64,000 nt of DNA from a virus: IMG/VR virus record IMGVR_UViG_3300038701_001470, positions 1-64,000 of that record; one strand, written 5' to 3'. The notes below the pieces were generated by a model that saw only the letters and a program-made list of their open reading frames with translations, did no database searches and was not told where the DNA came from. A program made the position numbers and the translations under genes. Positions 9,569-30,881 of the stretch are shown here, piece by piece (within the stretch, counting starts at the first letter, position 1; the number at the start of each line of letters is the position of its first letter).

Positions 9569-9580
9569 CCTTACGTAAGG
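9569..9580. promoter_or_regulatory. Dispersed palindrome, copy 1
   Basis: CCTTACGTAAGG flanked by TT and AA gives the full 16-base TTCCTTACGTAAGGAA. It lies upstream of the MoxR-type gene and contains the stop codon of the 47-residue gene at 9571-9714. Confidence 0.8.
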
Positions 9581-9714
9581 AAATTGAGAAGTTTGAGTAG
9601 TTGAATCAGCTGGCGACGAGTGGCTACCGGCTGGTTGTCTGAGTCGTAGAGATTTTCGTTGTCGTCGTTGCTCAGGTGATTTTCTATGAGTGCTTTGAGA
9701 ACTTTGGGATCCAT
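9571..9714 (-). CDS. Short hypothetical protein (47 aa)
   Basis: A short reading frame that I read directly: it begins MDPKVLKALIENH, continues through an Asn/Asp-rich middle, and ends in a Leu-rich helix (QLIQLLKLLNFLT). Its ATG overlaps the stop of the gene upstream as TAATG, a coupling arrangement used throughout this genome. Its stop codon is formed inside the palindrome. It looks like an amphipathic helical microprotein. Function unknown. Confidence 0.5.
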   Translation of the reverse strand: MDPKVLKALIENHLSNDDNENLYDSDNQPVATRRQLIQLLKLLNFLT

Positions 9715-10565
9715 TATGCCGCGGGGAAAAGTGACTGGAGGTTCTCAAGATGCTGATCGACACGTTTCGCAACGGTGCCTCGAAGCTGCTTGTCAGATCG
9801 AAGCTGATCGGCATCGAAGAGGGTGACGTTCTTCTGGAGCGCATCTGCGATCTCGAGAAGCTTCTTGTTCCCCGTGATGTTCAGATCGGGAAGAACCTTG
9901 ATGATACCGCGAAGATTCTCGACGAGAGAGTCGCGAAAGACGGCATCCGGATCCCCCAGGCGATCGGCCATGTCGGAGAGCGGTTTCGAGAGACGTTCGA
10001 GAAGATCGTTGACCGCGGCTTGCTCAGCGGCTTGCAACTTACCATTCAGGCTCTCTTCCATCTCTTCGAGCTCACGCTGAGAGACATCGATCCGGAAGTC
10101 ACCGGAAGCAGGAACAGGAGCGTTGTCCCACCGGAATTGAAACTTGTCGGCGATCGTTGTGTCGCTCGGATAATTCGAGTCGTCGAACAGATCTCCGAGG
10201 GTGCGACGGGCCTCAGCAACGTGAGAGTTGTAGGAGGAAACGAAGGCACAAACTTCCGTCTCGCGGCGAGCTTTGAACTTCCGCATCTCAGTCGAATAGT
10301 CGAGGAACTTCTTGCTCGGAAGCAATCGGGCTCCGCTATCAGACCAGGCGAGAGTGTGTTCGTAATGAAACCGGCGAATCTCGCCGTCGAGTTTGGAGAT
10401 TTTCTCCATCGCGCCGGCTGGAAGCAGATTGGTTTGCCAGCGTCCAGCATCGCCGGATGCTTTCTTGTTCTGGATGACTTCGGCAGTCGCTTTCTTGTCG
10501 AGGCGTTTGGCCGTGAATTTTGTCAGATGAACTGACACGAGTAATGCTCTATCTTGGAGTGACAT
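9714..10565 (-). CDS. Hypothetical helical protein, DUF3150-like, next to MoxR/VWA genes
   Basis: A 283-residue mostly helical protein. The start MSLQDRALLVSVHLTKFTAKRLDK, a following LLPAGAMEKI and a GARLLPSKKFLDY segment resemble the DUF3150 group, often found beside MoxR/VWA pairs in phages. The match is from memory and moderate. Residues about 170-270 form long amphipathic helices with heptad-like Leu spacing. It is preceded by a palindrome (10591-10602) and a terminator for the sliding clamp gene, so it probably starts a new transcript that runs through the ATPase cassette. Confidence 0.65.
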   Translation of the reverse strand: MSLQDRALLVSVHLTKFTAKRLDKKATAEVIQNKKASGDAGRWQTNLLPAGAMEKISKLDGEIRRFHYEHTLAWSDSGARLLPSKKFLDYSTEMRKFKARRETEVCAFVSSYNSHVAEARRTLGDLFDDSNYPSDTTIADKFQFRWDNAPVPASGDFRIDVSQRELEEMEESLNGKLQAAEQAAVNDLLERLSKPLSDMADRLGDPDAVFRDSLVENLRGIIKVLPDLNITGNKKLLEIADALQKNVTLFDADQLRSDKQLRGTVAKRVDQHLENLQSLFPAA

Positions 10566-10590
10566 GGTGTTATACAGTTGGGTTTGAGTT

Positions 10591-10602
10591 CCTTACGTAA
10601 GG
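10591..10602. promoter_or_regulatory. Dispersed palindrome, copy 2
   Basis: TTCCTTACGTAAGGAA centred about 31 bases upstream of the gene starting at 10565, just beyond the terminator of the sliding clamp gene. That is a sensible place for an operator or promoter element. Confidence 0.8.
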
Positions 10603-10613
10603 AAAAGAGGGCA

Positions 10614-10646
10614 TGAAAAAGCCGGGGAGGAAAACCAACCCCGGCT
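10614..10646 (-). terminator. Terminator after the sliding clamp gene
   Basis: On the minus strand AGCCGGGG pairs with CCCCGGCT around an 11-base loop, followed by a short T run. Confidence 0.85.
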
Positions 10647-10651
10647 CATCT

Positions 10652-10678
10652 ATTACCGATTTGAGGTTCAATTATTCG
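10652..10678. promoter_or_regulatory. Conserved GGTTCAATTATTCG element, copy 1
   Basis: It contains the exact 14-base core and an upstream ATTACCGA as in the copy at 13027. It overlaps the stop codon of the sliding clamp gene, so here the protein end is built into the element. Confidence 0.65.
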
Positions 10679-11937
10679 TTTGGCGCTCGCATCGGCATGA
10701 TGATGTATTCAGCATCATCGTTCTGAAATCGCGCTGGACGATCGTGATTGGCATAGCAGAAGGTATCCAAGCCCCATTTGAGAGGCGTCTCGACAAACTT
10801 CGCCGACAGTCGAACCGTTCCAATCTCCTCTTTGCTTCGGGAGCGGAAGAACGGGATCTCGAAGTGCGCTTCGTCACGCGATACGTGAATGGATTCCGGG
10901 CGCAATTCCATGACGAGAGTATCAAGGGCGTTGCCTTCGATTTTCGGAAGGGCTCTGATTCCTTCGAGAAGGGCTTTGGGGTCGAATTTCCCGATGATCT
11001 TGAACTCGTGATCCTCGAGCATAATCTGACGGAAGTTCGGATAGTTCCCTTCCAGAAGTTTCGTCACGAACATGAAGTCACCGGAGGTCACAGCGACGAG
11101 CTCTTTCTGAATCGGCTCAGCGTTTTTGCCTTTTCCTTCGACGGGAGGCGCGTAGCCAATCCGCCAGGGCTTCGACTGAAACGTGCGGTTCGTGATCGCT
11201 TTCGTGAGAGGAAAGATGATGCTTTCTTCGAGCACGGGAACGTCAGAGTAGGAATAGGCCAATCGACGGCCATCAGTCGCGACAATGACTGGATCATGGC
11301 CCGAGTGGGTTTCCTTGCTATCCCCCCAACCGCTCGTGTAGGTGCCGTTCTCGATGTAGACACCGTTCAGGACGTAGCGGGTTTCATCCGTGGAAGCAGC
11401 TTCGCAGAATTGAACGAATCGCTTCTTAGATGCTTCGGTGAACGGTTGCCATCTCATGTCGCAGCTGAGTGTCATGAGGGTTTCAACGTAGTCGTTGTGA
11501 TCGAGAGTGGAGACTTCTCGATCGACGACGACGCCACCCTTGCACTCGTAGTGCATCGCGACGGTGTGATGCTGAACGTATTCGGTTTCATCGTCGTCGC
11601 TTTCCTTCTCATGCTGAGTGACGGTGTGAACGAACTCGATTTCGCCGATCGCCTTTTTCGCGGCTTCTTCGATGGTATCCATCGGAACGAGAAAGGTGTC
11701 GTTCTCGCGCTCCCAGGCTGAGGTTTGGATGCGACGGCCAAGCTCTGACGTAGCAGGTGCGACGGAACCGGGAACGGTGTAGGTAAGCTGTCGATCCAGA
11801 TCGTTCGCAGTGATGCGAGTGACGCCATTGTGACGCCGGATCAGAAGGGATTCGAGAGCCCTGAATGTAGACTTTCGCGGGGCAATCGTCTTGAGAACAG
11901 GGATTGCTTTCTTGAGTTGTGAAGATTCGATTTTCAT
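10672..11937 (-). CDS. dnaN: DNA polymerase III beta subunit (sliding clamp)
   Basis: A 421-residue clamp, longer than the usual 366-380 because of acidic inserts. Diagnostic text includes the start MKIESSQLKKAIPVLK, an RITANDLDRQLTYTV strand, VATDGRRLAYS (about residues 221-231, the strand that follows the inter-domain linker), LLEGNYPNFRQIM (about 295) and the C-terminal EYIIMPMR. It would tether a polymerase to DNA for phage replication. No polymerase is visible in the window, so it may serve a phage enzyme encoded elsewhere or recruit the host one. A palindrome sits 20 bases before the ATG. Confidence 0.9.
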   Translation of the reverse strand: MKIESSQLKKAIPVLKTIAPRKSTFRALESLLIRRHNGVTRITANDLDRQLTYTVPGSVAPATSELGRRIQTSAWERENDTFLVPMDTIEEAAKKAIGEIEFVHTVTQHEKESDDDETEYVQHHTVAMHYECKGGVVVDREVSTLDHNDYVETLMTLSCDMRWQPFTEASKKRFVQFCEAASTDETRYVLNGVYIENGTYTSGWGDSKETHSGHDPVIVATDGRRLAYSYSDVPVLEESIIFPLTKAITNRTFQSKPWRIGYAPPVEGKGKNAEPIQKELVAVTSGDFMFVTKLLEGNYPNFRQIMLEDHEFKIIGKFDPKALLEGIRALPKIEGNALDTLVMELRPESIHVSRDEAHFEIPFFRSRSKEEIGTVRLSAKFVETPLKWGLDTFCYANHDRPARFQNDDAEYIIMPMRAPNE

Positions 11938-11956
11938 GAGTTTGTGAGAGTGATTT

Positions 11957-11968
11957 CCTTACGTAAGG
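11957..11968. promoter_or_regulatory. Dispersed palindrome, copy 3
   Basis: TTCCTTACGTAAGGAA ends about 20 bases upstream of the sliding clamp start codon. It is the closest spacing to a start in the set. Confidence 0.8.
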
Positions 11969-11994
11969 AAAATCGACGGACGGGCCTTGAAATG

Positions 11995-12035
11995 AAAAAA
12001 AAAGAGAGAAGCGAGCGCCGGAATTGCCGGCGCTC
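11995..12035 (-). terminator. Terminator after the acidic repeat protein gene
   Basis: On the minus strand a nine-base stem GAGCGCCGG/CCGGCGCTC with a five-base loop, followed after a short pyrimidine stretch by nine T residues. Confidence 0.8.
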
Positions 12036-12059
12036 ACTCCGCTATGATTACGCTGCGAA

Positions 12060-12983
12060 TTATGCAGCCTTGAGTTTGGTGATTGCGGGCGAACCAGCTT
12101 CCCCGAGAGAGTCGCCAACCATCATCGTCAGATCGGTCAAACGCTTGTAAACGTCGGTGATGTCGGCATCTTCCGGAAGCGAAGCGATCGCCATTTCAAG
12201 ATCGGTGATTTTGCTCAGGATCTCGCCAGTATCGGCAACGTCGGAAGTCGGCGCCGTTTCGGTTTCCTCAGTGACTTCGGGAGTCGTCTCAGGATCGGTT
12301 TCCTGCTCAGGCTCAGGATCGGTCTCAGTCTCAGTGACTTCGGGAGTCGGCTCAGGAGTCGGATCGGGAGTCGGCTCAGTATCGCCATCGCCGGAGTCGT
12401 CAGAACTGACTACCGGATCGGTTTCGGTTTCCTCGGAGCCCTTGTTCGCAGCGAGAGCGGCGGCATCGGCCTCAGTTTGCTTGCGGTTTTCCTCAGCGAT
12501 CCGGGTCTGCTCAGTGGCATAATCCTCGGCGAGCATATCGTGATTTGCCATCGATTCGATGTCATCGGCAATCGACTTCGATTCCTTGATGATCATGGCG
12601 ATAGTCTCAGCGGACTGGACATGCTCAGGCTTTTTGTTCTGCTTTCCGAGAGCGAACTTGATAGCGACGCACGCTTTGAACGTGAGTTTGTTGTAGTACT
12701 GGCTTTCCGTGATCAGGCCAGGGATGAGAAGCGACTCAACCGCATGAGCGGCATACTCGCCGTTTGAAATCTGGCCTTCATTCAGGCCAGCGGCTCGAAG
12801 AATTTGCCCGATGGACTTTTCCCCGCGTTTCGCGATCTCGACGAAGTGACGGATCAGGCCCATTTCGAGAAAGATTTTCTTCTCGGCTTTTGCCTTTTCT
12901 CCGATCAGCTTAATCCGATCAGCTTGTTTCATGGACTCGACTTCTTTGAGAGAGACGAGAGATTGCGTATTTGTCTTTTTCAT
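12060..12983 (-). CDS. Acidic TP-rich repeat protein
   Basis: A 307-residue protein starting at the ATG at 12983 (MKKTNTQS). An upstream in-frame ATG at 13046 would run through the conserved regulatory element. Residues 1-165 are helical with a QILRAAGLNEGQISNGEYA segment and a Lys-rich KFALGKQNKKPEH. Residues about 185-260 are a disordered Glu/Thr/Pro/Asp repeat region (PTPDPTPEPTPEVTETETDP type). A final helix follows. Such proteins often act in binding or as DNA mimics, but no family is recognised. The upstream region has both repeat elements. Confidence 0.65.
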   Translation of the reverse strand: MKKTNTQSLVSLKEVESMKQADRIKLIGEKAKAEKKIFLEMGLIRHFVEIAKRGEKSIGQILRAAGLNEGQISNGEYAAHAVESLLIPGLITESQYYNKLTFKACVAIKFALGKQNKKPEHVQSAETIAMIIKESKSIADDIESMANHDMLAEDYATEQTRIAEENRKQTEADAAALAANKGSEETETDPVVSSDDSGDGDTEPTPDPTPEPTPEVTETETDPEPEQETDPETTPEVTEETETAPTSDVADTGEILSKITDLEMAIASLPEDADITDVYKRLTDLTMMVGDSLGEAGSPAITKLKAA

Positions 12984-13026
12984 AGGTTTGTTTTCAGTTA
13001 GAAGATTGAGCGTTACCTGCTCACTT

Positions 13027-13053
13027 ATTACCGAACGGCGGTTCAATTATTCG
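13027..13053. promoter_or_regulatory. Conserved GGTTCAATTATTCG element, copy 2
   Basis: It has ATTACCGA, then CGGCGGTTCAATTATTCG. The centre contains a dyad ACCG-N5-CGGT. It lies between palindrome copy 4 and the start of the acidic repeat gene. Confidence 0.7.
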
Positions 13054-13074
13054 ATACCGTTCAGAAGTTTTTTT

Positions 13075-13086
13075 CCTTACGTAAGG
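13075..13086. promoter_or_regulatory. Dispersed palindrome, copy 4
   Basis: TTCCTTACGTAAGGAA between the terminator of the low-GC gene and the 14-base element, upstream of the gene at 12060-12983. Confidence 0.8.
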
Positions 13087-13112
13087 AATCGGACGGGATT
13101 CCGTCAGGACAC

Positions 13113-13139
13113 AAAAAAACCGCGACTTTCGCCGCGGTT
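13113..13139 (-). terminator. Terminator after the low-GC gene
   Basis: On the minus strand AACCGCG pairs with CGCGGTT around an eight-base loop (GCGAAAGT) and is followed by seven T residues. Confidence 0.85.
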
Positions 13140-13159
13140 GATTCGATGAAATTTTAGAT

Positions 13160-14002
13160 TCACTTGCCAGCGTAGCGAGCCAGCAATTTTTCCCCTTTCG
13201 CGATGTACTCGAGAAAGGCGGTTTTCTTCATTGATCTTGTGGACTTGTTCAGAATCCACTTAGGCGGATTTCCTTTTTCGTCGCATAGCTCATTCCATCC
13301 GGAATATTCGCCAGTTTCAAGGGCTAGAGCAAGATCAAGATAGGCGGAATGATTCGCCTTTACGGATTTCCATTTTCGTTTTCCAGCGTCTTTTTCGACA
13401 TTGGAAACCGCTTCAATGCACCGTTGAAAATGGCGGTATCGTCTCGCGATGTACCGCTTGCGACCGTGGGAAATTTCTTCATTCTCGCGAGTCGCGAAAA
13501 TGTTAAAATCAATGTCCCTTGGAACGTCTCGCCCTTTTTCAATGCGGTTCAAATTCAATCCGCGAATTGATCGCGTTTCATTGAAAACCGTATTTTCTCC
13601 AGTCGTGACGTAATCGCCATTTTCACCGATAGCGATGGAAAATTTTTCCTCGCTACCTTGCCAGAAAATTTCTGGCGCTTTCAATTTTTCAAAGGGTACC
13701 GCTTGCGATTCGATGAACTCAAAAGCATTGCACGAAACAAGCTTTTCAGTCACTAGGCCGATAATTTCCTCGCAATCCACTTGCGACAAGTCGCGATAGG
13801 TGGCGTGATTCGATTTCGGATATTGAATCGATTTGATAACCTTTCCCGCCGTCACTGCGATAAAAGCAATTTCGAGCGGTACGGAATTGAATCCGTCATT
13901 GTTTGGTTGAGCGTACGAATTGAGATAATTCAAAATCGCACGATTCGAGTTTTTCAGCTTGGAAAGCTGAACTGTCTTGGCTTGGAATGATTGCGTAATC
14001 AT
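13160..14002 (-). CDS. Low-GC hypothetical protein
   Basis: A 280-residue basic protein beginning MITQSFQAK at 14002. It is not recognised. Its DNA is visibly richer in AT than its neighbours (many TTTTTC, AATTTT and GAAAAT runs), suggesting separate acquisition. The middle has a GENGDYVTTGEN turn-rich segment. About residues 175-210 carry a basic patch (GRKRYIARRYRHFQRC) that could bind nucleic acid. It has its own promoter-like sequence, repeat elements and terminator, so it is a self-contained cassette. Confidence 0.65.
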   Translation of the reverse strand: MITQSFQAKTVQLSKLKNSNRAILNYLNSYAQPNNDGFNSVPLEIAFIAVTAGKVIKSIQYPKSNHATYRDLSQVDCEEIIGLVTEKLVSCNAFEFIESQAVPFEKLKAPEIFWQGSEEKFSIAIGENGDYVTTGENTVFNETRSIRGLNLNRIEKGRDVPRDIDFNIFATRENEEISHGRKRYIARRYRHFQRCIEAVSNVEKDAGKRKWKSVKANHSAYLDLALALETGEYSGWNELCDEKGNPPKWILNKSTRSMKKTAFLEYIAKGEKLLARYAGK

Positions 14003-14008
14003 AGGACT

Positions 14009-14039
14009 AGAATAAACCACAAAACCGTTTTTAATTCAA
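14009..14039 (-). promoter_or_regulatory. Sigma70-like promoter for the low-GC gene
   Basis: On the minus strand TTGAAT (14034-14039) and TTTATT (14011-14016) are 17 bases apart. An alternative -10 is TATTCT (14009-14014) at 19 bases. The predicted start of transcription falls within a few bases of the ATG at 14002, implying a leaderless or nearly leaderless message. Confidence 0.5.
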
Positions 14040-14088
14040 GTATTGTTTACAGGGAATTGCGTTTTTCCAGTCGTTTCCTTGCCACTTT

Positions 14089-14114
14089 CTACCGATTAGC
14101 GGTTCAATTATTCG
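14089..14114. promoter_or_regulatory. Conserved GGTTCAATTATTCG element, copy 3
   Basis: ACCGATTAGCGGTTCAATTATTCG with the same ACCG-N5-CGGT dyad. It lies about 90 bases upstream of the low-GC gene and about 30 bases from palindrome copy 5. Confidence 0.7.
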
Positions 14115-14142
14115 CCACTTTCGAGAAAGTTTTTTCGCTTTT

Positions 14143-14154
14143 CCTTACGTAAGG
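14143..14154. promoter_or_regulatory. Dispersed palindrome, copy 5
   Basis: TTCCTTACGTAAGGAA in the 269-base gap (14003-14271) that also holds the promoter, the 14-base element and an AT-rich dyad. No gene is seen in that gap. Confidence 0.8.
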
Positions 14155-14186
14155 AAATCACGCGACACCTTTAAACATCGGGAAAT

Positions 14187-14225
14187 CTCACAATACATAA
14201 TTATCAATAATTACGTATATGTGAG
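14187..14225. repeat. AT-rich imperfect inverted repeat
   Basis: CTCACA and TGTGAG flank a 26-base near-palindrome of ATAC-A/G-TAATTAT type in which 22 of 26 positions are symmetric. It lies just downstream of the gene ending at 14272 and upstream of palindrome copy 5. It could be an operator, a weak terminator or a melting region. The sequence alone does not decide. Confidence 0.5.
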
Positions 14226-14271
14226 TCTGCCGACGTTTAATTTGTGAGTGGTGAAAAGGGGGATTCCCGTC

Positions 14272-14580
14272 TCACTGATCTCGCATCAGAACGGCCCACC
14301 ATCCCCGGCCTGGGCGCTCCTGAACCGTCAGAAAAAAATCTGATCGGGCCTCGATTTGGAACCGTTGCTCAAGTTCGAGCTCAGCGGCCGTCGCGTCCTC
14401 TTCCGTCTGAATGAAAATGTCGAGTGGGATCCGGACATAGCAGCCCTCGAAGTCAGGTAGATCCTCGATCGGGACTTCTTCAATGTTGATTGGCTGGTAG
14501 TCACCGTCTGAGGCGGCCGCGAGAACGCTCACTGGAGCGTCGTCGAATATGGAGGTGATTTCTTGCTGTTTAATCTTCAT
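14272..14580 (-). CDS. Hypothetical 102-aa acidic protein
   Basis: Starts at the ATG at 14580 (MKIKQQEIT), overlapping the previous gene by 11 bases. It is strongly acidic up to about residue 70 (VPIEDLPDFEG, QTEEDATAAELELEQ), then has a basic/aromatic C terminus (GRGWWAVLMRD). No family is recognised. It is the last gene of the leftward unit that begins with the DNA methyltransferase at 16844. Confidence 0.6.
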   Translation of the reverse strand: MKIKQQEITSIFDDAPVSVLAAASDGDYQPINIEEVPIEDLPDFEGCYVRIPLDIFIQTEEDATAAELELEQRFQIEARSDFFLTVQERPGRGWWAVLMRDQ

Positions 14581-15028
14581 ATTTGCATTCCTTCCATTCT
14601 CCATCAGCTCCCATCCGGTGCTTCCACCGGTAGGTGTTGGGATCCATGACAAGAGTTCCGTTGTCAAAGATCGGGGAGATGTCCTCGAAGCCGATGATGT
14701 ATTTCTGACCGTTCGATGAAGGGCCATTCTCCCACTCTTCTCGCGTCCAGTTCCGGGGCCAGTGGTCAATCACTGCGATGACCTCTCTTTTCTCTTCGTC
14801 GATCGATTCGATGTAGGCTTCCTCAGAGTAGCAGTAGCTTTGATTCTCTTCACCGACGCGGCGGGCGCATGTCGTCGATATGTTGAAGTAGCGACCAACG
14901 GCCGGCCCGGGCCATCCCCACGATTCCCAAAGCCGTTTCTGCAATTCGATTGCCTCGTCTCTCCACTTCTCATGCTCGTCTTTCTCGATCTCTTCGATGA
15001 AGCCAGGGAAGAATTCAGTTTCGCTCAT
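14570..15028 (-). CDS. Hypothetical 152-aa protein
   Basis: Starts MSETEFFPGF at 15028 with an ATGA overlap to the upstream gene. An acidic N-terminal helix is followed by a Trp-rich segment (LQKRLWESWGWPG) and another (WPRNWTREEWENG). Two cysteines are present in the middle. Not recognised. Its place between a zinc ribbon and an acidic protein in the methyltransferase operon suggests a small accessory role only. Confidence 0.6.
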   Translation of the reverse strand: MSETEFFPGFIEEIEKDEHEKWRDEAIELQKRLWESWGWPGPAVGRYFNISTTCARRVGEENQSYCYSEEAYIESIDEEKREVIAVIDHWPRNWTREEWENGPSSNGQKYIIGFEDISPIFDNGTLVMDPNTYRWKHRMGADGEWKECKYED

Positions 15029-15255
15029 AGGAATGGATCGGTTTGAGGTTCGATTTTTCGGTCGGGTGGAATGACGAATCCGGAATCCGTGACAGTCGCA
15101 GTTCCGACGTTCACCACTTTGAAGTGGTATCCGCAATTCGGGCATTGGAACTCATCTCGAGCCAGTTCTATTCCAAGTCGGGATTCGCAGAAGTCGAAAA
15201 GATTTGCCGTCTGTTCGCACTCGCCGCATGTGATTGAGCATTCTCCGTCGATCAT
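15025..15255 (-). CDS. Zinc-ribbon protein (76 aa)
   Basis: It has CGECEQ near residue 10 and CPNCGYHF near residue 38, a compact four-cysteine zinc ribbon, followed by a beta-type tail. The last codons overlap a degenerate copy of the conserved 14-base element (15035-15060). Overlaps both neighbours by ATGA. Probably binds nucleic acid or protein; function unknown. Confidence 0.65.
   Translation of the reverse strand: MIDGECSITCGECEQTANLFDFCESRLGIELARDEFQCPNCGYHFKVVNVGTATVTDSGFVIPPDRKIEPQTDPFL
15035..15060. repeat. Degenerate copy of the GGTTCAATTATTCG element
   Basis: GGTTTGAGGTTCGATTTTTCG resembles copy 1 (TTTGAGGTTCAATTATTCG) with two changes in the 14-base core. It is inside coding sequence, so it may be a decayed site or coincidence. 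Confidence 0.4.
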
Positions 15256-16844
15256 GATAGGAGTCGTGAGGGGTCAAGGTTGATGTGGGTTTTCGCTCGG
15301 AAAGCTCTCATTGCTTCGACCGGTTTCGCCTTCATCTCGCGAGCGACTTCCTGATGGGAATGAACCCATCCTTTGAGTTTTCCGAATTGAGCGTTGAGAG
15401 CCAGCGTGAAGCTTCCGTTCAGTTTCAGATGGAGGTTTCCATTCCGGTAGGCTTTCATGGTAGCCCAAAGGATCCGCTCGCCCCGGTAATCGGCATAGAA
15501 CTCGACGGCTTGCCCGGGCTTGTCGGTATCTTGGAAAACATGATTGTACTGATCTCCAACGAGTGTCACGATCTCGAATCCTAGAGTCCTCGCCACAACG
15601 GATAGATCTTCAATCAGAGCGATTCCGGAAGTGTTGAGCCAAAGTTTCGAGTGGTGATCTCGAGCGTTCCACCGATCCGTGTTGAATCCGCACCATCCCA
15701 TGACGATTCGATGCTGGAGCTTCACGTGGGTTGCTTCCTCACGGAAATTGTGTCGGTTCCAGTGATCGTCTTTGAAGACTTTGGAGTTCGAGACGTAGTT
15801 CTCGCAGTTCGAGACATACATCATTCGCTCGTAGACCTCGATGAGCTGCTGATCGATGAAGTCATTGGCGTTTTTGATGGCCCATATCACGACGGCATAG
15901 ACGTTCTCTTTCGAGAAATCGATTTGCGTGTTCGACGATGCCTTGCGAAGCAGTTCGTCACGAGTCTTGGAAGTGAGTCGTGATGTGATCGGCGTCATGT
16001 TGTCGAAGATGCTCTTCCAGTATGCGTTCTTGAGTTCCTTGATTCTTCGTTTCAGCATTTCACGAACGTCCTTCACTGAAATCTCGAACTCTTTCAGAAC
16101 TCGCGGGTGGAGACGTCCGACCTCCTGATAATTCTGTTGAAGCTGTTCCATCTCTGCGAGGTAGAGTCCGACGAGGGTTTCAACGTAGTCCTTCCCCACT
16201 GCCAGTTCGCGGAGTTTGGGGATTTTGGGAGCGTCTGGAACGGTGTCGGTGAGCTCAGGATACAGATCGGCGAAGAAGGAATCGAATCCGTCTTCTGACT
16301 CAGGGCCATCGAAGTCTATCCGGATGGCGTTCACACGGCCACGGGCTTTGCGATCTTCCGAGTCGCAGAACCGGAACTCTCCAAGGTTGAGAGCCTGAAC
16401 TCGTCTCACTTGCATCGCATCGCCGATGATTTTCGATCGAGACCAACGAACGGGAATTACAAGGTAGAGAGTTTTGCAGGATGCTTCCCTGACGAGCTTC
16501 GCAACCCAGGACTCGAACTCGCTGTATGGAGGATTGCAAAACATGACATCGACGTGTTTGTCGAAAAAGGACTGATCGTGAAAATCGGTTCCTAGAATCA
16601 CGATCTCCTTACGTAAGGATTTGATCAGTCGTTGAGACTTCTCGATGGCAAAAAGATTCTCGATCTCGAACCGATCATCGAAAGCGTCGATGACTTTGCC
16701 ATTGCCGGCGCCGACATCGAGAAAGGACTCGACATTCAGGCTGATGCAGTCATTGAGAATCGCCTCGATGATTTCCTCAGTGGTGGGATACCACTCGAAA
16801 TCTTCGCCAGCTTCTTGAACTTGGGTGAGTAGTGCAGTAGTCAT
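15252..16844 (-). CDS. DNA methyltransferase-like protein with DUF4942 C terminus
   Basis: A 530-residue protein. Residues about 35-60 carry a SAM-binding motif (FLDVGAGNGKVIDAF) and about 107-113 the catalytic FCNPPYSEF motif of N6-adenine methyltransferases. The long C-terminal part (about 210-530), with YVSNSKVFKDDHWNRHNF and WNARDHHSKLWLNTSG, matches my recollection of the DUF4942 domain, often fused to or beside such methyltransferases on mobile elements. It may protect phage DNA from restriction. Palindrome copy 6 lies inside this gene, translated as LRKE. Upstream are both repeat elements. Confidence 0.8.
   Translation of the reverse strand: MTTALLTQVQEAGEDFEWYPTTEEIIEAILNDCISLNVESFLDVGAGNGKVIDAFDDRFEIENLFAIEKSQRLIKSLRKEIVILGTDFHDQSFFDKHVDVMFCNPPYSEFESWVAKLVREASCKTLYLVIPVRWSRSKIIGDAMQVRRVQALNLGEFRFCDSEDRKARGRVNAIRIDFDGPESEDGFDSFFADLYPELTDTVPDAPKIPKLRELAVGKDYVETLVGLYLAEMEQLQQNYQEVGRLHPRVLKEFEISVKDVREMLKRRIKELKNAYWKSIFDNMTPITSRLTSKTRDELLRKASSNTQIDFSKENVYAVVIWAIKNANDFIDQQLIEVYERMMYVSNCENYVSNSKVFKDDHWNRHNFREEATHVKLQHRIVMGWCGFNTDRWNARDHHSKLWLNTSGIALIEDLSVVARTLGFEIVTLVGDQYNHVFQDTDKPGQAVEFYADYRGERILWATMKAYRNGNLHLKLNGSFTLALNAQFGKLKGWVHSHQEVAREMKAKPVEAMRAFRAKTHINLDPSRLLS
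16607..16618. repeat. Dispersed palindrome, copy 6 (intragenic)
   Basis: TCCTTACGTAAGGA inside the methyltransferase gene, encoding Leu-Arg-Lys-Glu. It is the only copy within coding sequence and lies about 235 bases downstream of the start, where it could act as a roadblock or auxiliary operator. Confidence 0.75.
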
Positions 16845-16872
16845 ATTTTGGGTGCGTTGATTGTCATTACCC

Positions 16873-16898: not shown

Positions 16899-16905
16899 GA
16901 ATTCT

Positions 16906-16917
16906 CCTTACGTAAGG
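16906..16917. promoter_or_regulatory. Dispersed palindrome, copy 7
   Basis: TCCTTACGTAAGGA in the divergent promoter region, 8 bases from the 14-base element and 33 bases before the rightward start codon. One bound protein here could affect both directions. Confidence 0.8.
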
Positions 16918-16929
16918 AAATCCTCAGAG

Positions 16930-16950: not shown

Positions 16951-17394
16951 ATGGCAAATCTCGTAATCGACCCAACTCTCGTCATCGCTTCTTCGGGTGC
17001 GTCCACTCTCAAAAGCACGGCTGGCGAAACAATCCTCGCCGGACAACCCGTTTACAAAGCTGACGGGAGCATGTTCCTCGGAGACGCCAACGATCCCGAG
17101 AAGATCGACATCGCCGGTATCGCTCTTCACAATGCTTCTCTTGGACAACCGCTTTCGTACGTGGTTTCCGACGAAGCTCTTGAAATTGGTGCCGATGTTG
17201 GGGTGGGATTCCCTTACGTTCTCGGAGATGAGCCAGGAGACATTTCCGGAGTTGCGGATCTCGCTCCCGGTCATTTCACTGTCATGATCGGCGTGGGGCG
17301 TCCGGATAATAAGCTCCACATCAACTTTGCCAGCCCTTCCCCTCTCCGTTCTGACGAGGCAATCGGCTCAGGTGAAGATCCCGTAGCCCCCTGA
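16951..17394 (+). CDS. Capsid cement-like (DUF2190-type) protein
   Basis: A 147-residue, beta-rich, acidic protein beginning MANLVIDPTLV. It has the pattern of DUF2190-like head decoration proteins: LKSTAGETILAGQPVYKAD, an IDIAGIALHNASLGQPLSYV strand pair, then GVGFPYVL. These trimers cap and stabilise capsids. Two shorter proteins at 25510 and 28017 look like a related pair. The start follows TTGACA by 15 bases and lacks Shine-Dalgarno. It is the first gene after the reverse-strand island. Confidence 0.65.
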   Translation: MANLVIDPTLVIASSGASTLKSTAGETILAGQPVYKADGSMFLGDANDPEKIDIAGIALHNASLGQPLSYVVSDEALEIGADVGVGFPYVLGDEPGDISGVADLAPGHFTVMIGVGRPDNKLHINFASPSPLRSDEAIGSGEDPVAP

Positions 17395-17397
17395 TTT

Positions 17398-17409
17398 CCT
17401 TACGTAAGG
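17398..17409. promoter_or_regulatory. Dispersed palindrome, copy 8
   Basis: TTCCTTACGTAAGGAA four bases after the cement-like gene stop and 56 bases before the next start. Last copy of the island cluster. Confidence 0.8.
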
Positions 17410-17465
17410 AAAAGTGGCTTCGGTTGACTGTGACACGCAGAGCATAGCGCACTGCGAAAGTCACC

Positions 17466-17723
17466 ATGGCAACTGATTGGGAAACCACATATCGGCACTT
17501 CACCGACACAGAACTCGCTGAGGAGATTGAAGATCTCCAGAAAAAGCGAAAGCAGTATAATTCTGCTCAGAATGTCGGGAATCACGGTTTCACCCGTGAC
17601 ATTCGACTGATCAACGATCAGTTCAAAGCTGCGATCAAGGTTCGTGGCGAGCGTCGTCAAAACTCAGGCCCAGGCACGGGCAAGCATGGTGTCGTGGATT
17701 ACAGCGGACTCGACATCTCATGA
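17466..17723 (+). CDS. Small charged protein upstream of portal, gpW-like position
   Basis: An 85-residue helical, charged protein (FTDTELAEEIEDLQKKRKQY), ending in Gly-rich text then GVVDYSGLDIS. In lambda-like phages a short head-tail joining protein (gpW) lies between terminase and portal, and this length and place fit. Sequence similarity to gpW is not obvious, so the call rests on position. It is separated from the portal by the fucosyltransferase-like gene. Confidence 0.5.
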   Translation: MATDWETTYRHFTDTELAEEIEDLQKKRKQYNSAQNVGNHGFTRDIRLINDQFKAAIKVRGERRQNSGPGTGKHGVVDYSGLDIS

Positions 17724-23990: not shown

Positions 23991-23994
23991 ATCG

Positions 23995-24148: not shown

Positions 24149-24167
24149 CTATTCATCCCTTCGATGA

Positions 24168-24173
24168 TTGACA
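24168..24173 (+). promoter_or_regulatory. TTGACA start-associated signal
   Basis: Begins 20 bases before the ATG of the prohead protease gene at 24188, downstream of the tRNA-like element. Confidence 0.55.
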
Positions 24174-24187
24174 TGCTCTGATCGGGC

Positions 24188-25444: not shown

Positions 25445-25509
25445 GCCTTCAACCCCCTCAATTCTCAATCGTTTTTTCTCTCTCATTTTGAACTGAACTT
25501 CTTTCCACC

Positions 25510-25857
25510 ATGAATAAAAATTGCGTCATTTCCCTTCCTATCGCCGAGGATACCAAGATCGCCGCGTTCACTCGGGTCAAGCTCGATGAGAACGGCCAGG
25601 TAGTCGTGGCAGACGCCGGCGACAAGGCCATCGGCCACACCGAACTCGATGTGGATGGGTCAAATGGCAGACCGGTTTGCGATGTGTATCGCACCAATGG
25701 GGGAGGATCGCACTACGCGATTGCTTCCGAAGCATTCACTCCCGGACAGGAGTTCGAGGGTGCCGATGACGGTGAGATTGCCGTTCTGGATGCCGGAACA
25801 GCTGAGGGCCAAGCTCTCGAAGCTGGAGACGGAACCATCCGAGTTCTCTACTACTAA
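25510..25857 (+). CDS. Head decoration (cement) protein, paralog A
   Basis: A 115-residue acidic beta protein starting MNKNCVISLPIAEDT. It contains AFTRVKLDENGQVVVADAGDKAIGHTE, the DUF2190-like barrel pattern, then RPVCDVYRTNGGGSHYAIASEAF. The gene at 28017 encodes a clear paralog (MNKSFVISLPLAPG, RPVIDVYRSNSGGLHFATASEPL). It lies directly upstream of the major capsid gene, where cement proteins usually are. The leader is pyrimidine-rich, with TTGAAC at 22 bases before the ATG. Confidence 0.75.
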   Translation: MNKNCVISLPIAEDTKIAAFTRVKLDENGQVVVADAGDKAIGHTELDVDGSNGRPVCDVYRTNGGGSHYAIASEAFTPGQEFEGADDGEIAVLDAGTAEGQALEAGDGTIRVLYY

Positions 25858-25921
25858 GAAATCGCCTTCTCTCACGAACCATTTCCCTAACCCAATTTTT
25901 TTCATCCAACTGTAATCAGCC

Positions 25922-26881
25922 ATGTATGCTAACTCCGCAGCCGTAAGCCGGCCCGAAATCTCCACCTTTCTTGAGGAGGCGACCAAGGCAGAAGACTTCT
26001 ACATCGCGCAGAAGATCATGCCCGTCTTCACCTCGAAATCGAGGGCTGGACGATACCCGCGTCTCAAAATCGAGAACGGTGAACTCATGAAAGCCCAGTC
26101 GACCCTTCGTGGCCCTTCTGGTACCTACAATGAGGTCGCACGTAAGTTCGATTGGGAGACCTACGACTGTGAAGATCGCGGTCTCGAAGAGCGCATCGAC
26201 GATGTGAATGCTCGTGAGATGCAGAACTTCTTCGACACCGAAGTTGTGACTGCCAAGCTGGTTCGCCGGTCGGTTGTTCTCGACTACGAGAAGCGTGTCG
26301 CCGATCAGATCATGAATCCTGATTCGTTCAATGCAGTCGCATCCCACGTTGGATACACTGAGGCGAATCTCGCTACGATCGACTTTGCCCGGGATCTTCT
26401 CGATGCAGTTGAGCGTCTTGAGCAGCGTGCTCAAATGGCGAACACCATGATTCTCACCCGTGCGGTGTTCAACCTGCTTCGTCGCTCCAAGCTTCTGCAG
26501 ACCTACCTCTTCGGTAATCTCGGAGCTGGAACCGAGCATCGTCTGATCAACCCAACGGACATCGGAAATGCTTTCGGCATCAAAGACGTCCGGATCGCGG
26601 CTGCGACCTACGACCGCGCTCAAAAGGGCAAGCCGAAAGAACTCGTTCCGGTTTGGAAGAACGATTACATCTTCCTTGGCAATGTTCAGGGCGGTGACTT
26701 CGAGAACGGCGGTATCGGTCGGACGATCGTTTGGGACTCCGATTCTCCCGGTGGACTCTTTGCGACCGAAACCTATCGCGACGAGAAGCGCCGCGGTAAC
26801 ATGGTTCGAGTCCGCATGAACACCGACGAGAAGATCGTCGACGAGACTGCCGGTGAGCTGATCACCACTCAGTTCGAGTAG
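25922..26881 (+). CDS. Major capsid protein
   Basis: A 319-residue protein of a size and place expected for the lambda gpE-like capsid protein. It starts MYANSAAVSRPEISTFLEEA and has FDWETYDCEDRGLEERID, an arginine/acid-rich N-terminal arm, then ANTMILTRAVFNLLRRS in the A domain, and ends with VRVRMNTDEKIVDETAGELI. There is no obvious prohead cleavage site at the N terminus, fitting a separate scaffold in the preceding protease fusion. A strong terminator follows, which would let it be expressed at a high level. Confidence 0.85.
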   Translation: MYANSAAVSRPEISTFLEEATKAEDFYIAQKIMPVFTSKSRAGRYPRLKIENGELMKAQSTLRGPSGTYNEVARKFDWETYDCEDRGLEERIDDVNAREMQNFFDTEVVTAKLVRRSVVLDYEKRVADQIMNPDSFNAVASHVGYTEANLATIDFARDLLDAVERLEQRAQMANTMILTRAVFNLLRRSKLLQTYLFGNLGAGTEHRLINPTDIGNAFGIKDVRIAAATYDRAQKGKPKELVPVWKNDYIFLGNVQGGDFENGGIGRTIVWDSDSPGGLFATETYRDEKRRGNMVRVRMNTDEKIVDETAGELITTQFE

Positions 26882-26926
26882 AACTTTCTCGGAGACCTTT
26901 TTACGGGGGTTTTTGGGTTTCTGATA

Positions 26927-26960
26927 AAGGGGCGGGTCGAAAGACTCGCCCCTTTTGTTT
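26927..26960 (+). terminator. Terminator after the major capsid gene
   Basis: A 12-base stem (AAGGGGCGGGTC with one G-T pair) capped by a GAAA tetraloop and followed by TTGTTT. The T tail overlaps the TTGACA signal of the next gene. Confidence 0.9.
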
Positions 26961-26964
26961 GACA
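26959..26964 (+). promoter_or_regulatory. TTGACA start-associated signal
   Basis: Begins 20 bases before the ATG at 26979, immediately after a terminator, where a fresh initiation signal would be useful. Confidence 0.55.
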
Positions 26965-26978
26965 CTGATCGTCTCTGC

Positions 26979-27305
26979 ATGAGCAGTTTCCACGACGCGA
27001 TGGTCGAAGCCTATTCCGAGATGGAAGATCAGGCCGGTGAAGAGGTTTTCATCGACGGCCAGCCAGCAACCGGCATTGTCGACGAAAGCACGTTCTCGAT
27101 CGGTAACCATCCTGGGGGCGCAAGGCAGAGTGCCATTCAGATGCAGGTTCATATCTCCATCGCGGAATTCCAGCGAGTAGGGGGAAGAGATGGGTCGAAG
27201 GTCGAAGTCCCAAGCCGAAAGCTCAAAGGCCGGGTATCCAGCATTGAAGGATACACAGCCGGCCACTACACTCTTCTGATTGGAAGCCCCAACGCGAGAA
27301 CATGA
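26979..27305 (+). CDS. Head-tail joining protein candidate
   Basis: A 108-residue acidic protein starting MSSFHDAMVEAYSEMEDQ at the ATG 20 bases after TTGACA, not the in-frame TTG at 26955. A beta-rich middle (ESTFSIGNHPGG, QMQVHISIAEFQ) and GSKVEVPSRKLKGRVSSIEG fit head-completion proteins of the lambda FII/HK97 gp7-like kind found just after the capsid gene. Position and size carry the call; no strong signature. Confidence 0.55.
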   Translation: MSSFHDAMVEAYSEMEDQAGEEVFIDGQPATGIVDESTFSIGNHPGGARQSAIQMQVHISIAEFQRVGGRDGSKVEVPSRKLKGRVSSIEGYTAGHYTLLIGSPNART

Positions 27306-27583
27306 TCAAGATCAAATCCTCCAATAACCTCAAGGCCACATTCAGCCGGATCGTTTCAAAGTTCGATTCGGTTGTCTCCGAGTCATCCAAGGCCGGAGGG
27401 CGGGAGTATCGTCGTCATGGGATGGGGCTGGCAGATATTGAGGAACTTCCGGAGCCAGATCAGATCCTTCTCAAAGCCATGGGAGCGGTGGACGAAACCG
27501 GTTTTCAGGATGAGAAGAAAATCGCCGACAAGAAGGTTCTCAATGCCGTGATGAAAGGACTCAACAAACTCTTTGGGAAATGA
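27302..27583 (+). CDS. Small basic head-tail region protein
   Basis: A 93-residue, Lys-rich helical protein (MIKIKSSNNLKATFSRIVSKF), with GMGLADIEELPEPDQILLKAMGA and a C-terminal KVLNAVMKGLNKLFGK helix. Not recognised. It sits between two candidate connector proteins, with ATGA overlaps, and so probably belongs to head-tail assembly. Confidence 0.55.
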   Translation: MIKIKSSNNLKATFSRIVSKFDSVVSESSKAGGREYRRHGMGLADIEELPEPDQILLKAMGAVDETGFQDEKKIADKKVLNAVMKGLNKLFGK

Positions 27584-27996
27584 TCGATCTACCTATCCGT
27601 GACAGAGTTGAGCGCATGTTCGTCGATGGCCTGAAAGAGTGCATCGAAGAGCTTCCGGTGTTCCCTCGCCGTATCGATGAGTCAGTGGATGATGAGGACT
27701 ACTGGATCGTTTGCCGGTGCGAAGAAGCTGAGGAAACGACTACCGGTTCAGGAGTCTACTACGGCGATTGCTCGATCGTTTTCGCGTCTCATGTCAGCGA
27801 CGTTGGTTCTGATCAACATGGGAAATGGCTCAAGAAGATCGAGGATCGTCTCGTCGAAATGAACCTTGAGAAAATCACCGATGAGAAGAACGGTGTCGTC
27901 GGTTTCGGATGGGGCCCGATGGTTCTTCGGGAGGCGTCTCAGTTCAAGACTCACGGTGATGTGGTGACATTCAGGGGCGGTTTCGGCTACCTCTAA
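27580..27996 (+). CDS. Tail terminator-like (gpU-like) protein
   Basis: A 138-residue alpha/beta protein that starts with a helix (IDLPIRDRVERMFVDGLKECIEE) and continues with strands such as GVYYGDCSIVFASHV and VVTFRGGFGYL. This layout, a leading helix and alternating strands with a DxxH-like region at the C terminus, is that of tail-terminator and minor tail U proteins, which cap the tail tube at the head. Order after the joining genes supports it. Moderate confidence. Confidence 0.55.
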   Translation: MIDLPIRDRVERMFVDGLKECIEELPVFPRRIDESVDDEDYWIVCRCEEAEETTTGSGVYYGDCSIVFASHVSDVGSDQHGKWLKKIEDRLVEMNLEKITDEKNGVVGFGWGPMVLREASQFKTHGDVVTFRGGFGYL

Positions 27997-28002
27997 TTGA
28001 CA
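27997..28002 (+). promoter_or_regulatory. TTGACA start-associated signal
   Basis: Directly after the TAA of the preceding gene and 20 bases before the ATG at 28017. Confidence 0.55.
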
Positions 28003-28016
28003 CTCTCTTTTCAGCA

Positions 28017-28415
28017 ATGAACAAAAGCTTCGTCATCTCATTGCCCCTCGCTCCCGGTGCCGTCATTCCGGCATACGCTCGAGTGAAATTCAGCCAGGAG
28101 GGTATCGAGATTGCCGACGAGAACGACCGTTCGATCGGACACTGCGAACAGGATTGCAATTACTCAGTGCGTCCCGTCATTGACGTCTACCGCTCGAACT
28201 CAGGAGGATTGCATTTCGCTACGGCTTCCGAACCTCTCGTTGCCGGGGAAGGTTTTGTGGGTGCCGACGACGGCATGATTCAGGCAGCTGATGAGCATCC
28301 CGAGGGGATCGTGATTCAAGATGCGGAAGAAGGTGCCACGATAATGGTTGCCTATTACTCTGCTTCCGGTTTGACTGTAACTGATGATTCAGGCAGTGAA
28401 CCAGAAGCCCCATGA
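28017..28415 (+). CDS. Head decoration (cement) protein, paralog B
   Basis: A 132-residue paralog of the protein at 25510: shared FVISLPLAPG, ARVKFSQEGIEIADENDRSIGH, IDVYRSNSGGLHFATASEPL and GADDGMI segments, with an extra acidic C terminus. Duplicate decoration genes flanking the capsid and joining genes suggest two distinct surface positions or an exchanged epitope. It overlaps the following glycosyltransferase gene by ATGA. Confidence 0.7.
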   Translation: MNKSFVISLPLAPGAVIPAYARVKFSQEGIEIADENDRSIGHCEQDCNYSVRPVIDVYRSNSGGLHFATASEPLVAGEGFVGADDGMIQAADEHPEGIVIQDAEEGATIMVAYYSASGLTVTDDSGSEPEAP

Positions 28416-29803
28416 GTAAATTAGGAATTTTTGTCACAGGCCGCGATGCAGTAACCAGGCATAGTGCGGAACATTTCAATCCCGAGGCGACTGTCGTTGT
28501 CGGGGTGCAGACGGTAGCTGAGATAGCTGAGGCCGTCAGAACAGAGCGCCTTTCCCATATCGTCATTGTGCGGCCGGGAATCGTTTTCAGCCGTGGGATC
28601 TCGACGAACATTCCCCTCAACGGAGACAGGCATTGCGGCATCATTGGCGACGGGTTGAAGCTGGCTCTCGTCTCTCCGAAATACATCGCTCATCTCGAGG
28701 ACGGTCAGATTTGGGAATCGATCGCCGGTCAAGACGAAGTTCTCGTTCGCACGGGATGGCAGGGTAATTTCCTCGCAGCGTTCCCCACGACGTTCCCTGA
28801 CAACTACGACTTCAACCGGTATCGGGTGAACTGCGTAGCGGTTTCGATCGAGGGCCGGCAGCGTGACGAGTTCAATCGGGTGAAAGAGGAGGTATGGCAT
28901 TTCCTCAAGAATAACAAACCGATTCAGGTTGAGAACGTCTCGTATCCGATGATTCACGAGCTGTCATCGATGCGCCGGGATGGGGTTCGATGCGAACTCA
29001 AGAAGCGGGGCGGATCCAAGTTGAATCACATGGTCACCATCGCGACGAAAGAGGTTGCCGAGGATTTGACCCGTCTCATTCCGACTGCCCTCTTCTACAC
29101 CGACGCTCATCTCCACATCATTTGCGATCCGGAGACGGCAGCAATGCTTCCGAGAACACTCGACAAGCGAATCCATGTCTACCCGATGCTCACTGAGAAA
29201 GCTCTCAACGATGCGATCGGGAAGCTCAAGAACCTCACGGTGCAGAGCGATTACTGGAAGCCCGGGCCTATTTGGTGGAAACTCAAGGGGCTCGAATGGC
29301 TCGCTGAGACTCTGAACGATTCTCTGATGCTGGTTGATTCCGACATCGTTTTCACAGGCCGGTTCGACGAGCGCCTTCGTGGAGACGCCAAGCTGTCACC
29401 GTTCTTCTGGCCTGATCCTCTTCTATCGGTTCGCCGTGCCCCTGACTCCGACGACTTCGTTCCCATCTCAGAGCGGGACGGATGGATCAATGCTGGCTAT
29501 GCTTGGATCCGGAGTGAAGAGGTGGCGACCTACTGGAAGGAACTCTACGAATCCGGTATCGGCGGCTTCTACGAGCAATGGTGCATGGGCTTCCTTCCCT
29601 CGAAGTTCAAGTGCTCTTACTTCGATGAGCGTCACAATCACGGGAACTGGAGAAATCAGGCTCCCGACGACGAAACGATCTCAGTTCACATTCATGCTGA
29701 GACGAGGCCGAAAAAGAAGTCTCTGATTTCCGTTCAAAATGCCGCTAATTCGGCTGTTGACCGTGCAATTTCGGAAGTCCCTGCTATCATCCTGAAAAGA
29801 TGA
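28412..29803 (+). CDS. Glycosyltransferase-like protein, two regions
   Basis: A 463-residue protein. The first 130 residues (MSKLGIFVTGRDAVTRH, VVVGVQTVAEIAEAVRTE) look like a separate Rossmann-like region. The rest has a GT-A core with the DxD motif SLMLVDSDIVFTGRF (near residue 307) and WINAGYAWI, typical of nucleotide-sugar transferases. It resembles the smaller GT at 1858 in the acceptor half. It is overlapped by head genes upstream and by a sulfotransferase downstream, so the two probably modify the same sugar. Donor and acceptor unknown. Confidence 0.65.
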   Translation: MSKLGIFVTGRDAVTRHSAEHFNPEATVVVGVQTVAEIAEAVRTERLSHIVIVRPGIVFSRGISTNIPLNGDRHCGIIGDGLKLALVSPKYIAHLEDGQIWESIAGQDEVLVRTGWQGNFLAAFPTTFPDNYDFNRYRVNCVAVSIEGRQRDEFNRVKEEVWHFLKNNKPIQVENVSYPMIHELSSMRRDGVRCELKKRGGSKLNHMVTIATKEVAEDLTRLIPTALFYTDAHLHIICDPETAAMLPRTLDKRIHVYPMLTEKALNDAIGKLKNLTVQSDYWKPGPIWWKLKGLEWLAETLNDSLMLVDSDIVFTGRFDERLRGDAKLSPFFWPDPLLSVRRAPDSDDFVPISERDGWINAGYAWIRSEEVATYWKELYESGIGGFYEQWCMGFLPSKFKCSYFDERHNHGNWRNQAPDDETISVHIHAETRPKKKSLISVQNAANSAVDRAISEVPAIILKR

Positions 29804-30474
29804 TATTTTGGGATCGAAAAGAAATCTTCCTCCACTTTCCCAGGACGGGCGGAACCTCCTACGAGTCAGCGATCCTTGAGCCGATGGGGTTCAAGGGCTC
29901 CCGCGGGGCCGAAACCTACGAGCTGCGTTCAGCGCCGGTAGCATCGAAGCATCTCGACGCAATGAGAGCCGAGGCTCTTTGGCCCGATCAATTCCACGAT
30001 CCTGAATGGAAGGTCACCACGATCATGAGGCGTCCGGACAAGGTGATGATCTCTCAGTTCATCCAGTCTCACAACACGGCAGATCCCAACCGGGGCACTT
30101 TCAAAATCCCGGAGTTCAGGGGATGGGCCAAGAGGCGTGGATTCCGTTACATAACGGCTGCAGAAGTGGACGATCACGCGAGACACCTGATTGCCGATCA
30201 GGAGAATCTGATCAGCGCCGGCGCTTCGATCGCTCGTTTCTATCAAACCCGGGAACCGGTTCGGATTGAGGTTTTGGATTTCGAGAATCTTCCCAAAGAA
30301 ATTCATGAAAGGCTTGGCACAAGACCTCCCCACAGAGGGAAGCGTTCAGCGAAGCGGAAGAATCCCCGCAAGGTTTATGGCGATCTACACCAGCCATTCA
30401 TTCAGGAGTTCAGCCTCGATTTCCTGCTTTGGGAGACGGGAATTAGAAACGGGTTCATAGTTTCTCCAACGTGA
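29800..30474 (+). CDS. Sulfotransferase family protein
   Basis: A 224-residue protein. The N-terminal motif IFLHFPRTGGTSYES is the P-loop-like 5'-phosphosulfate loop of PAPS-dependent sulfotransferases. TIMRRPDKVMISQF (about residues 72-85) matches the 3'-phosphate-binding RxPxxxxxSxF motif. The family moves sulfate from PAPS to sugars or proteins. The ATGA overlap with the glycosyltransferase upstream implies a sulfated glycan. A second, more divergent member lies at 38570. PAPS would have to come from the host. Confidence 0.75.
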   Translation: MIFWDRKEIFLHFPRTGGTSYESAILEPMGFKGSRGAETYELRSAPVASKHLDAMRAEALWPDQFHDPEWKVTTIMRRPDKVMISQFIQSHNTADPNRGTFKIPEFRGWAKRRGFRYITAAEVDDHARHLIADQENLISAGASIARFYQTREPVRIEVLDFENLPKEIHERLGTRPPHRGKRSAKRKNPRKVYGDLHQPFIQEFSLDFLLWETGIRNGFIVSPT

Positions 30475-30478
30475 TAAG

Positions 30479-30484
30479 TTGACA
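30479..30484 (+). promoter_or_regulatory. TTGACA start-associated signal
   Basis: Directly after TGATAAG. It is 7 bases before an ATG at 30486 and 19 bases before the ATG at 30498. The usual spacing favours 30498 as the true start. Confidence 0.55.
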
Positions 30485-30497
30485 CATGCCGAAAGGC

Positions 30498-30866
30498 ATG
30501 AGCGGATTCACCCAACATGGTAACCAGGACTATCGATTCGGATTCAAAGATCCGGCAGCGGAAAACATCGCTGATGCGGTAGGTCTCAAGCCTCAAACTC
30601 TTTCGATTTCCGGAGAGCCGGAATTTACCGCCGAGGGCAAGAACCTTGAGGGACTGACTGAGGCGTTCGTTGTCGCCAAGGAAAAGTTCTCGTTCACCAT
30701 GAGCGGTTTCATTGTCGATCTCGAGAACTTCGGCGCTCCCGGAGCTACCTTCGACTACGACGGGAATCACTTCATCGTGACAGGTCGGAAGCGGGACGTT
30801 TCCAGTCAGGACTTCCAGAAGGGAGAAATCACTGGAATGAGTTACCCTCTCATCGACGGAAACTGA
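30498..30866 (+). CDS. Major tail tube protein candidate
   Basis: A 122-residue protein. The start at 30498 is preferred over 30486 by the TTGACA spacing. It is beta-rich with strands such as FSFTMSGFIVDLENF and ATFDYDGNHFIVTGRKRDV. Position between connector genes and the tail assembly/tape-measure genes is that of the tail tube. It is shorter than lambda gpV. An alternative is another connector. A palindrome and a terminator follow. Confidence 0.55.
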   Translation: MSGFTQHGNQDYRFGFKDPAAENIADAVGLKPQTLSISGEPEFTAEGKNLEGLTEAFVVAKEKFSFTMSGFIVDLENFGAPGATFDYDGNHFIVTGRKRDVSSQDFQKGEITGMSYPLIDGN

Positions 30867-30869
30867 TCT

Positions 30870-30881
30870 CCTTACGTAAGG
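30870..30881. promoter_or_regulatory. Dispersed palindrome, copy 9
   Basis: TCCTTACGTAAGGA isolated from the cluster, 46 bases before the tail assembly gene and just before a terminator. It ties tail expression to the same regulator. Confidence 0.75.

Follow-up and report, generated by a model that had tools for sequence, protein, structure and literature searches.

Phage-specific palindromes dispersed through the genomes of uncultured relatives: putative operators of a phage-encoded regulator

The window analysed here, a 64,000-nucleotide stretch of the virus record IMGVR_UViG_3300038701_001470, carries one perfect palindrome at many places, which raises the question of what these sites do and, if they bind a protein, which protein that might be. 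The exact 14-mer TCCTTACGTAAGGA occurs nine times and a scan allowing up to two mismatches revealed no copies with one or two mismatches, while the 8-mer TTACGTAA is restricted to the same nine places within the window. A preliminary description had reported nine identical copies, eight of them intergenic, and both counts hold; the exception, at 16606, falls within the methyltransferase/DUF4942 gene 15252-16844(-). The coordinates given there mark the right sites, although they refer to the inner 12-mer, which begins one base after the 14-mer. When the search was extended beyond the window to the full record (67,577 b), a tenth exact copy was found at 64327, 4 nt before an ATG, where the palindrome itself supplies the Shine-Dalgarno AAGGA.

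The nine palindromes (exact matches, listed without strand) and the neighbouring genes are as follows.

9568..9581, palindrome, 31 nt before the ATG of 8409-9536(-)
10590..10603, palindrome, 24 nt before the ATG of 9714-10565(-), directly after a terminator-like hairpin
11956..11969, palindrome, 18 nt before the sliding-clamp ATG, 10672-11937(-), after a terminator-like hairpin
13074..13087, palindrome, proposed to be autoregulatory, 90 nt before the ATG (12983) of the candidate regulator
14142..14155, palindrome, ~121-139 nt before the start of 13160-14020(-)
16606..16619, palindrome, the sole intragenic copy in the window, within the coding sequence of 15252-16844(-)
16905..16918, palindrome in a divergent gap, 60 nt to 15252-16844(-) and 32 nt to the plus-strand gene at 16951
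17397..17410, palindrome heading the portal/capsid gene run, 2 nt past the stop of the previous plus-strand gene and 55 nt before 17466(+)
30869..30882, palindrome, 2 nt past a stop codon and 45 nt before 30928(+)
8409..9536, minus strand, putative target, AAA+ ATPase (phrog_1297)
9714..10565, minus strand, putative target, weakly DUF3150-like protein
10672..11937, minus strand, putative target, DNA polymerase sliding clamp
12060..12983, minus strand, candidate cognate regulator of 307 aa, proposed from an AF2 model, family distribution and co-variation with the operators
13160..14020, minus strand, putative target, protein of no assigned function and without a homologue among the relatives
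15252..16844, minus strand, putative target, methyltransferase with DUF4942
17466..17723, plus strand, putative target, small protein conserved directly upstream of the portal gene
30928..31560, plus strand, putative target, conserved late gene upstream of 31557-35117

Most of the ten sites thus stand shortly ahead of a gene. In the left part of the window, the palindromes sit between minus-strand genes, several of them following a hairpin that resembles an intrinsic terminator, with the next ATG 18-90 nt further on.

Other features share this neighbourhood. A second dispersed repeat, GAATAATTGAACCNCNNNTCGGTA, occurs on the minus strand at 10677, 13052, 14113 and 16897; three palindromes have a copy 7-28 nt downstream, and another copy stands ~60 nt before a palindrome. 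The relative G050 has a different repeat (TTCAAGGTGTCCT..GTTACTAAG) at a similar place. Late plus-strand genes (16951, 20281, 22765, 24188, 26979, 28017, 30498, 31557 and 44523) share a start signal, TTGAC(A)-N14 to N17-ATG, with no obvious Shine-Dalgarno; the gene at 16951, which faces the divergent palindrome, has the form TTGAC-N16-ATG. The region 6882-10565(-), a cluster common to several relatives, encodes a DUF2201 metallopeptidase/VWA protein beside the AAA+ ATPase and the DUF3150-like protein. Further along are an AbiEii-like nucleotidyltransferase toxin gene at 43647-44363(-) and, at 53203-55456(-), a DUF5131 protein and an ASCH-domain protein that are unusually similar to their counterparts in the relative G001 (56% identity for the ASCH protein).

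Searches with the portal and the prohead protease recovered ~60 loci of uncultured relatives together with two contigs from metagenome-assembled genomes (MAGs). Since MAG contigs carrying relatives were named Akkermansiaceae and Verrucomicrobiaceae, the hosts are probably Verrucomicrobiota. No close cultured phage was found among phage and plasmid records, where portal matches were remote (~21-25% amino acid identity) and the prohead protease had no match. A tyrosine-recombinase integrase was detected in 13 of the 20 relatives tested; none was found in the window's own record or in G001.

G001 carries TCCTTACGTAAGGA at five exact and six one-mismatch sites, some of them before orthologous genes (orthologues are 25-56% identical in amino acid sequence); its orthologue of 9714-10565, for instance, has a palindrome 9 nt before its start. 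At least 12 distinct relatives have a network of the same kind, each with its own exact palindrome, among them ACCGTTACGTAACGGT, ACTTACGTAAGY, CTCTTACGTAAGAG, TTCTTACGTAAGAA, CCCTTACGTAAGGG, CCCTTGCGCAAGGG, ATCCTTAC-S-GTAAGGAT, ATCCTTA-NNN-TAAGGAT and AGTCTTA-NNN-TAAGACT. Copy numbers range from ~5 to 24 per genome or fragment, the upper end being G043 (~24 palindrome copies; 25 matches of the CCCTTGCGCAAGGG core). With crude gene calls, 75 sites lie near start codons against 28 expected, and many sites in G028, G042, G043 and G044 are intragenic. An exact-pattern scan of viral contigs returned 49 stretches, mostly apparent single chance matches, the informative ones being G001, G005 and the G002 group. 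The latter (G002, G003, G004 and G006; L071 and L073-L075) represents a second phage group, with 42% GC and a terminase ~22% identical, in which TCCTTACGTAAGGA appears two to three times per 8-23 kb and in part overlaps the Shine-Dalgarno; its short contigs yielded no candidate regulator, and a search for longer contigs found none. In G057, CGCTTACATAAGCG lies within short tandem repeats at both genome ends (1-150 and 66000-66249).

In the MAGs that hold G033 and G032, exact palindromes occur on phage contigs only, taking several short palindrome-bearing contigs in the G032 MAG as pieces of one phage. This restriction argues that the regulator is phage-encoded; with the remainder of both MAGs free of palindromes, LexA-type and other host-regulator readings were set aside.

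Behind the phage-specific sequences lies a shared code. Except in one divergent pair, every network uses CTTRY as the half-site of an inverted repeat whose spacer is 0 or 1 bp and whose centre is Y-R; a phage-specific flank precedes each half-site (TC in the window phage), the G011 group uses GTTRY, and the motif of G018 and G019 is another one, CTTTT-N4-AAAAG. All 82 even sites have a Y-R centre (45/45 and 37/37), and 39 of the 40 odd sites have Y-N-R; CA and TG can stand in for one another at the centre, and pairing runs through it. Three site classes were counted, with one class per network genome; four of the odd-spacer phages (G036, G040, G042 and G044) form one clade on the tree and G050 falls elsewhere. 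Dyad symmetry of this kind, with symmetric half-sites around the Y-R centre, is as in dimeric helix-turn-helix (HTH) operator-repressor systems such as lambda cI. The suggestion already made for the window, that the palindromes are operators of a phage regulator, is thus well supported by phage-specific versions in distant relatives, the strand-symmetric centre and the confinement to phage contigs in two MAGs. We consider it somewhat better than an even bet that they are operators of a phage-encoded homodimeric regulator, most likely the 12060-12983(-) protein, acting as a repressor or roadblock.

The best candidate, and the most likely regulator, is the 12060 protein. It has an HTH-like segment (LRAAGLNEGQISNGEYAA) and an acidic, low-complexity C-terminus, and AF2 models its N-terminal domain as all-helical (pLDDT 92.6), residues 58-64 and 69-86 forming an HTH-like pair, an assignment that draws on a local sequence pattern and on weak HTH_23 matches in two family members. 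The model had no match in the PDB; in a viral structure library, its best match was an uncharacterised phage protein (E 4e-7), followed by a few DUF3102 proteins at E >1 only. Nor was there a convincing Pfam or PHROG family, a tblastn match among 50,697 phage records or a match in plasmid records, and the family is too divergent across its members for a single peptide pattern. Among 26 well-covered genomes, the family occurs in 10 of 10 network phages, in 6 of 6 with few or atypical sites and in 2 of 10 without a network; G053 and G054 carry distant members and no palindrome network. Core counts are ~0 in phages that lack the protein, and nearly all members have a palindrome upstream of the gene. 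An XRE-like match in the window, considered as a repressor, was set aside, appearing by sequence to be the small-terminase protein 3197-3925.

We propose that a homodimer of the 12060 protein would bind inverted CTTRY half-sites around the Y-R centre, both upstream of its own gene, giving autoregulation, and at sites scattered in front of early and late genes, where the bound protein would block the initiation or elongation of transcription. In temperate members, such a regulator would hold the lytic genes silent, and immunity types would be set by the operator particular to each phage. The computation itself shows the network, its phage specificity, its dyad symmetry and its co-variation with the 12060 protein, whereas binding by this protein, its dimeric state and the repressive effect are inferred. 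A repressor or roadblock is preferred because the sites stand before early and late genes at variable distance, lie between terminators and starts, are sometimes intragenic and, in several relatives (G011, G049, G020, G021 and G043), occupy the space from the TTGAC start signal to the ATG.

The opposite sign of control, with a phage protein on the palindrome recruiting RNA polymerase to early or late genes in the manner of Ogr/delta or Mu C, seems unlikely, although many sites do follow a terminator and precede a start codon, the place to look for a promoter, and several palindromes in G001 are 4-12 nt upstream of TTGACA. Against activation, the spacing between palindrome and start ranges from 0 to >100 nt, some sites fall in coding sequence or within gene runs, and no promoter consensus at fixed spacing emerges (4 promoter-like matches versus 5.5 expected). 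The TTGACA beside some palindromes was abandoned as a -35 box, being part of a general gene-start signal that is enriched in relatives with and without palindromes.

Across 12 phages, operator distance correlates with distance between 12060 N-terminal domains (Mantel r=0.53, p=5e-5; r=0.66 with four flank bases), this and other Mantel p-values being indicative only, since the analysts chose the operator coding and the phage set, tried several codings and families, and drew on phages that are not independent samples. Other proteins gave 0.21 (portal), 0.08 (major capsid protein), -0.13 (protease), 0.31 (terminase), 0.27 (clamp) and 0.29 (the HTH protein 61153-61968), compared with 0.39-0.61 for the 12060 protein on the same phage sets. 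The neighbouring 9714 family, on eight phages, reached 0.43 versus 0.27 for the 12060 protein, or 0.41 versus 0.47 with four flank bases. We looked for co-variation confined to the HTH segment and did not find it, so linkage with a neighbouring gene is possible as the source of the signal. Even so qualified, palindrome versions that change in step with the 12060 protein suggest a genome-wide on/off switch of a new type.

The 61153-61968(-) protein had been named earlier as a possible palindrome binder. It contains a plausible HTH in its sequence and is conserved, but its gene belongs to the core and is also present in relatives lacking a network (G013, G024, G035, G037, G041, G053-G055 and G058), and operator distance follows it less closely than it does the 12060 protein on the same eight phages (0.29 versus 0.61). 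It is therefore not the best candidate, and we regard it as an improbable regulator of these sites.

Dispersed 13-16 bp palindromes bound by a dimeric protein of plasmid, chromosomal or phage origin are also known as KorB operators of plasmid RK2, Noc sites and SopB sites of phage N15, and KorB and SopB regulate genes as well. The palindromes described here are of similar length, scattered through the genome and partly intragenic, with ~24 copies in G043, and might on that account form a distributed centromere or nucleoprotein-organising array. We think this improbable too: unlike those systems, all 20 phages searched with the AAA_31 model lacked ParA (controls positive), 18 members of the 12060 family gave no ParB/KorB-type Pfam match, no structural match was found in the PDB, and most relatives possess an integrase.

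RNA hairpins beside start codons, bound by a translational repressor, are a still less probable explanation. The palindrome ends 0-1 nt before the ATG in G011 and G049, and it supplies the Shine-Dalgarno at 64327 and in the G002 group; yet the constant Y-R centre, with CA and TG interchangeable, is what a strand-symmetric DNA site predicts, pairing that reaches the centre leaves no room for a loop, and palindromes also occur between divergent genes and inside genes. The strand-symmetric centre and the pairing through it thus favour a DNA dyad. Chance or a mobile repeat can practically be dismissed, as had been asserted of chance, for nothing beyond the shortness of the motif speaks for chance, shuffled windows are expected to hold 0.04 copies (≤2 mismatches) and reached nine or more in 0 of 100 shuffles, the sequences outside the 14 bp are unrelated to one another and so speak against a mobile repeat, and analogous networks are kept in relatives.

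How, then, does a network of putative repressor operators compare with those already known? Dispersed operator networks have been described in few phages, namely Cluster A mycobacteriophages, SPbeta and P1. P1 has a dozen or more dispersed C1 operators, asymmetric 17-mers that control many units; the likeness is in dispersal within one phage genome, whereas the sites here are palindromic, and no C1-like protein was recognised.

A comparison with the stoperators of mycobacteriophage L5 had been drawn for the window, and it stands for function but not for symmetry. In Cluster A, motifs differ from phage to phage, divergence between motifs follows divergence between repressors, and a stoperator ahead of the repressor gene is proposed to be autoregulatory (PMC6550527). 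L5-type sites lack symmetry, mostly share one orientation and bind a monomer (PMC9283540). Shared with Cluster A are the many short, similar sites dispersed in one genome, near gene boundaries and with one before the (candidate) regulator gene; in contrast to the asymmetric 13-bp sites of L5, those described here are perfect inverted repeats, which as palindromes have no orientation, and in place of a homologue of the L5 gp71-type repressor stands a candidate without a known family. In the Bacillus phage SPbeta, the master repressor MrpR (YopR) acts through SPBRE, a 15-bp motif with ~10 intergenic sites in prophage promoter regions; these were recognised in the sequence before binding by the phage repressor was demonstrated, and that repressor proved to have an unexpected fold, that of tyrosine recombinases (PMC10516654). 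About ten dispersed and mostly intergenic sites are common to both; by contrast, the N-terminal domain of the candidate is all-helical in the AF2 model, without a PDB match, and the site is a CTTRY dyad. The arrangement would work much as the Cluster A and SPbeta systems do, but with palindromic sites and a protein unrelated by sequence and, according to the model, by fold, the network is a member of neither.

Somewhat more tentatively, and with slightly less than even confidence, we suggest that the 12060 protein may represent a new phage DNA-binding family, without a detectable relative in structures or in phage or plasmid records, which would run genome-wide palindromic networks in phages of Verrucomicrobiota, many of them temperate, and whose specificity may evolve through changes in the flanks and a 1-bp insertion between half-sites, giving many immunity types. 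If true, this would add a group of networks in a phylum with almost unstudied phages, with a palindromic code and a regulator candidate of no known family, and the dozen natural pairs of operator and protein, including one-base changes in spacer, would make the evolution of operator specificity and immunity type open to experiment.
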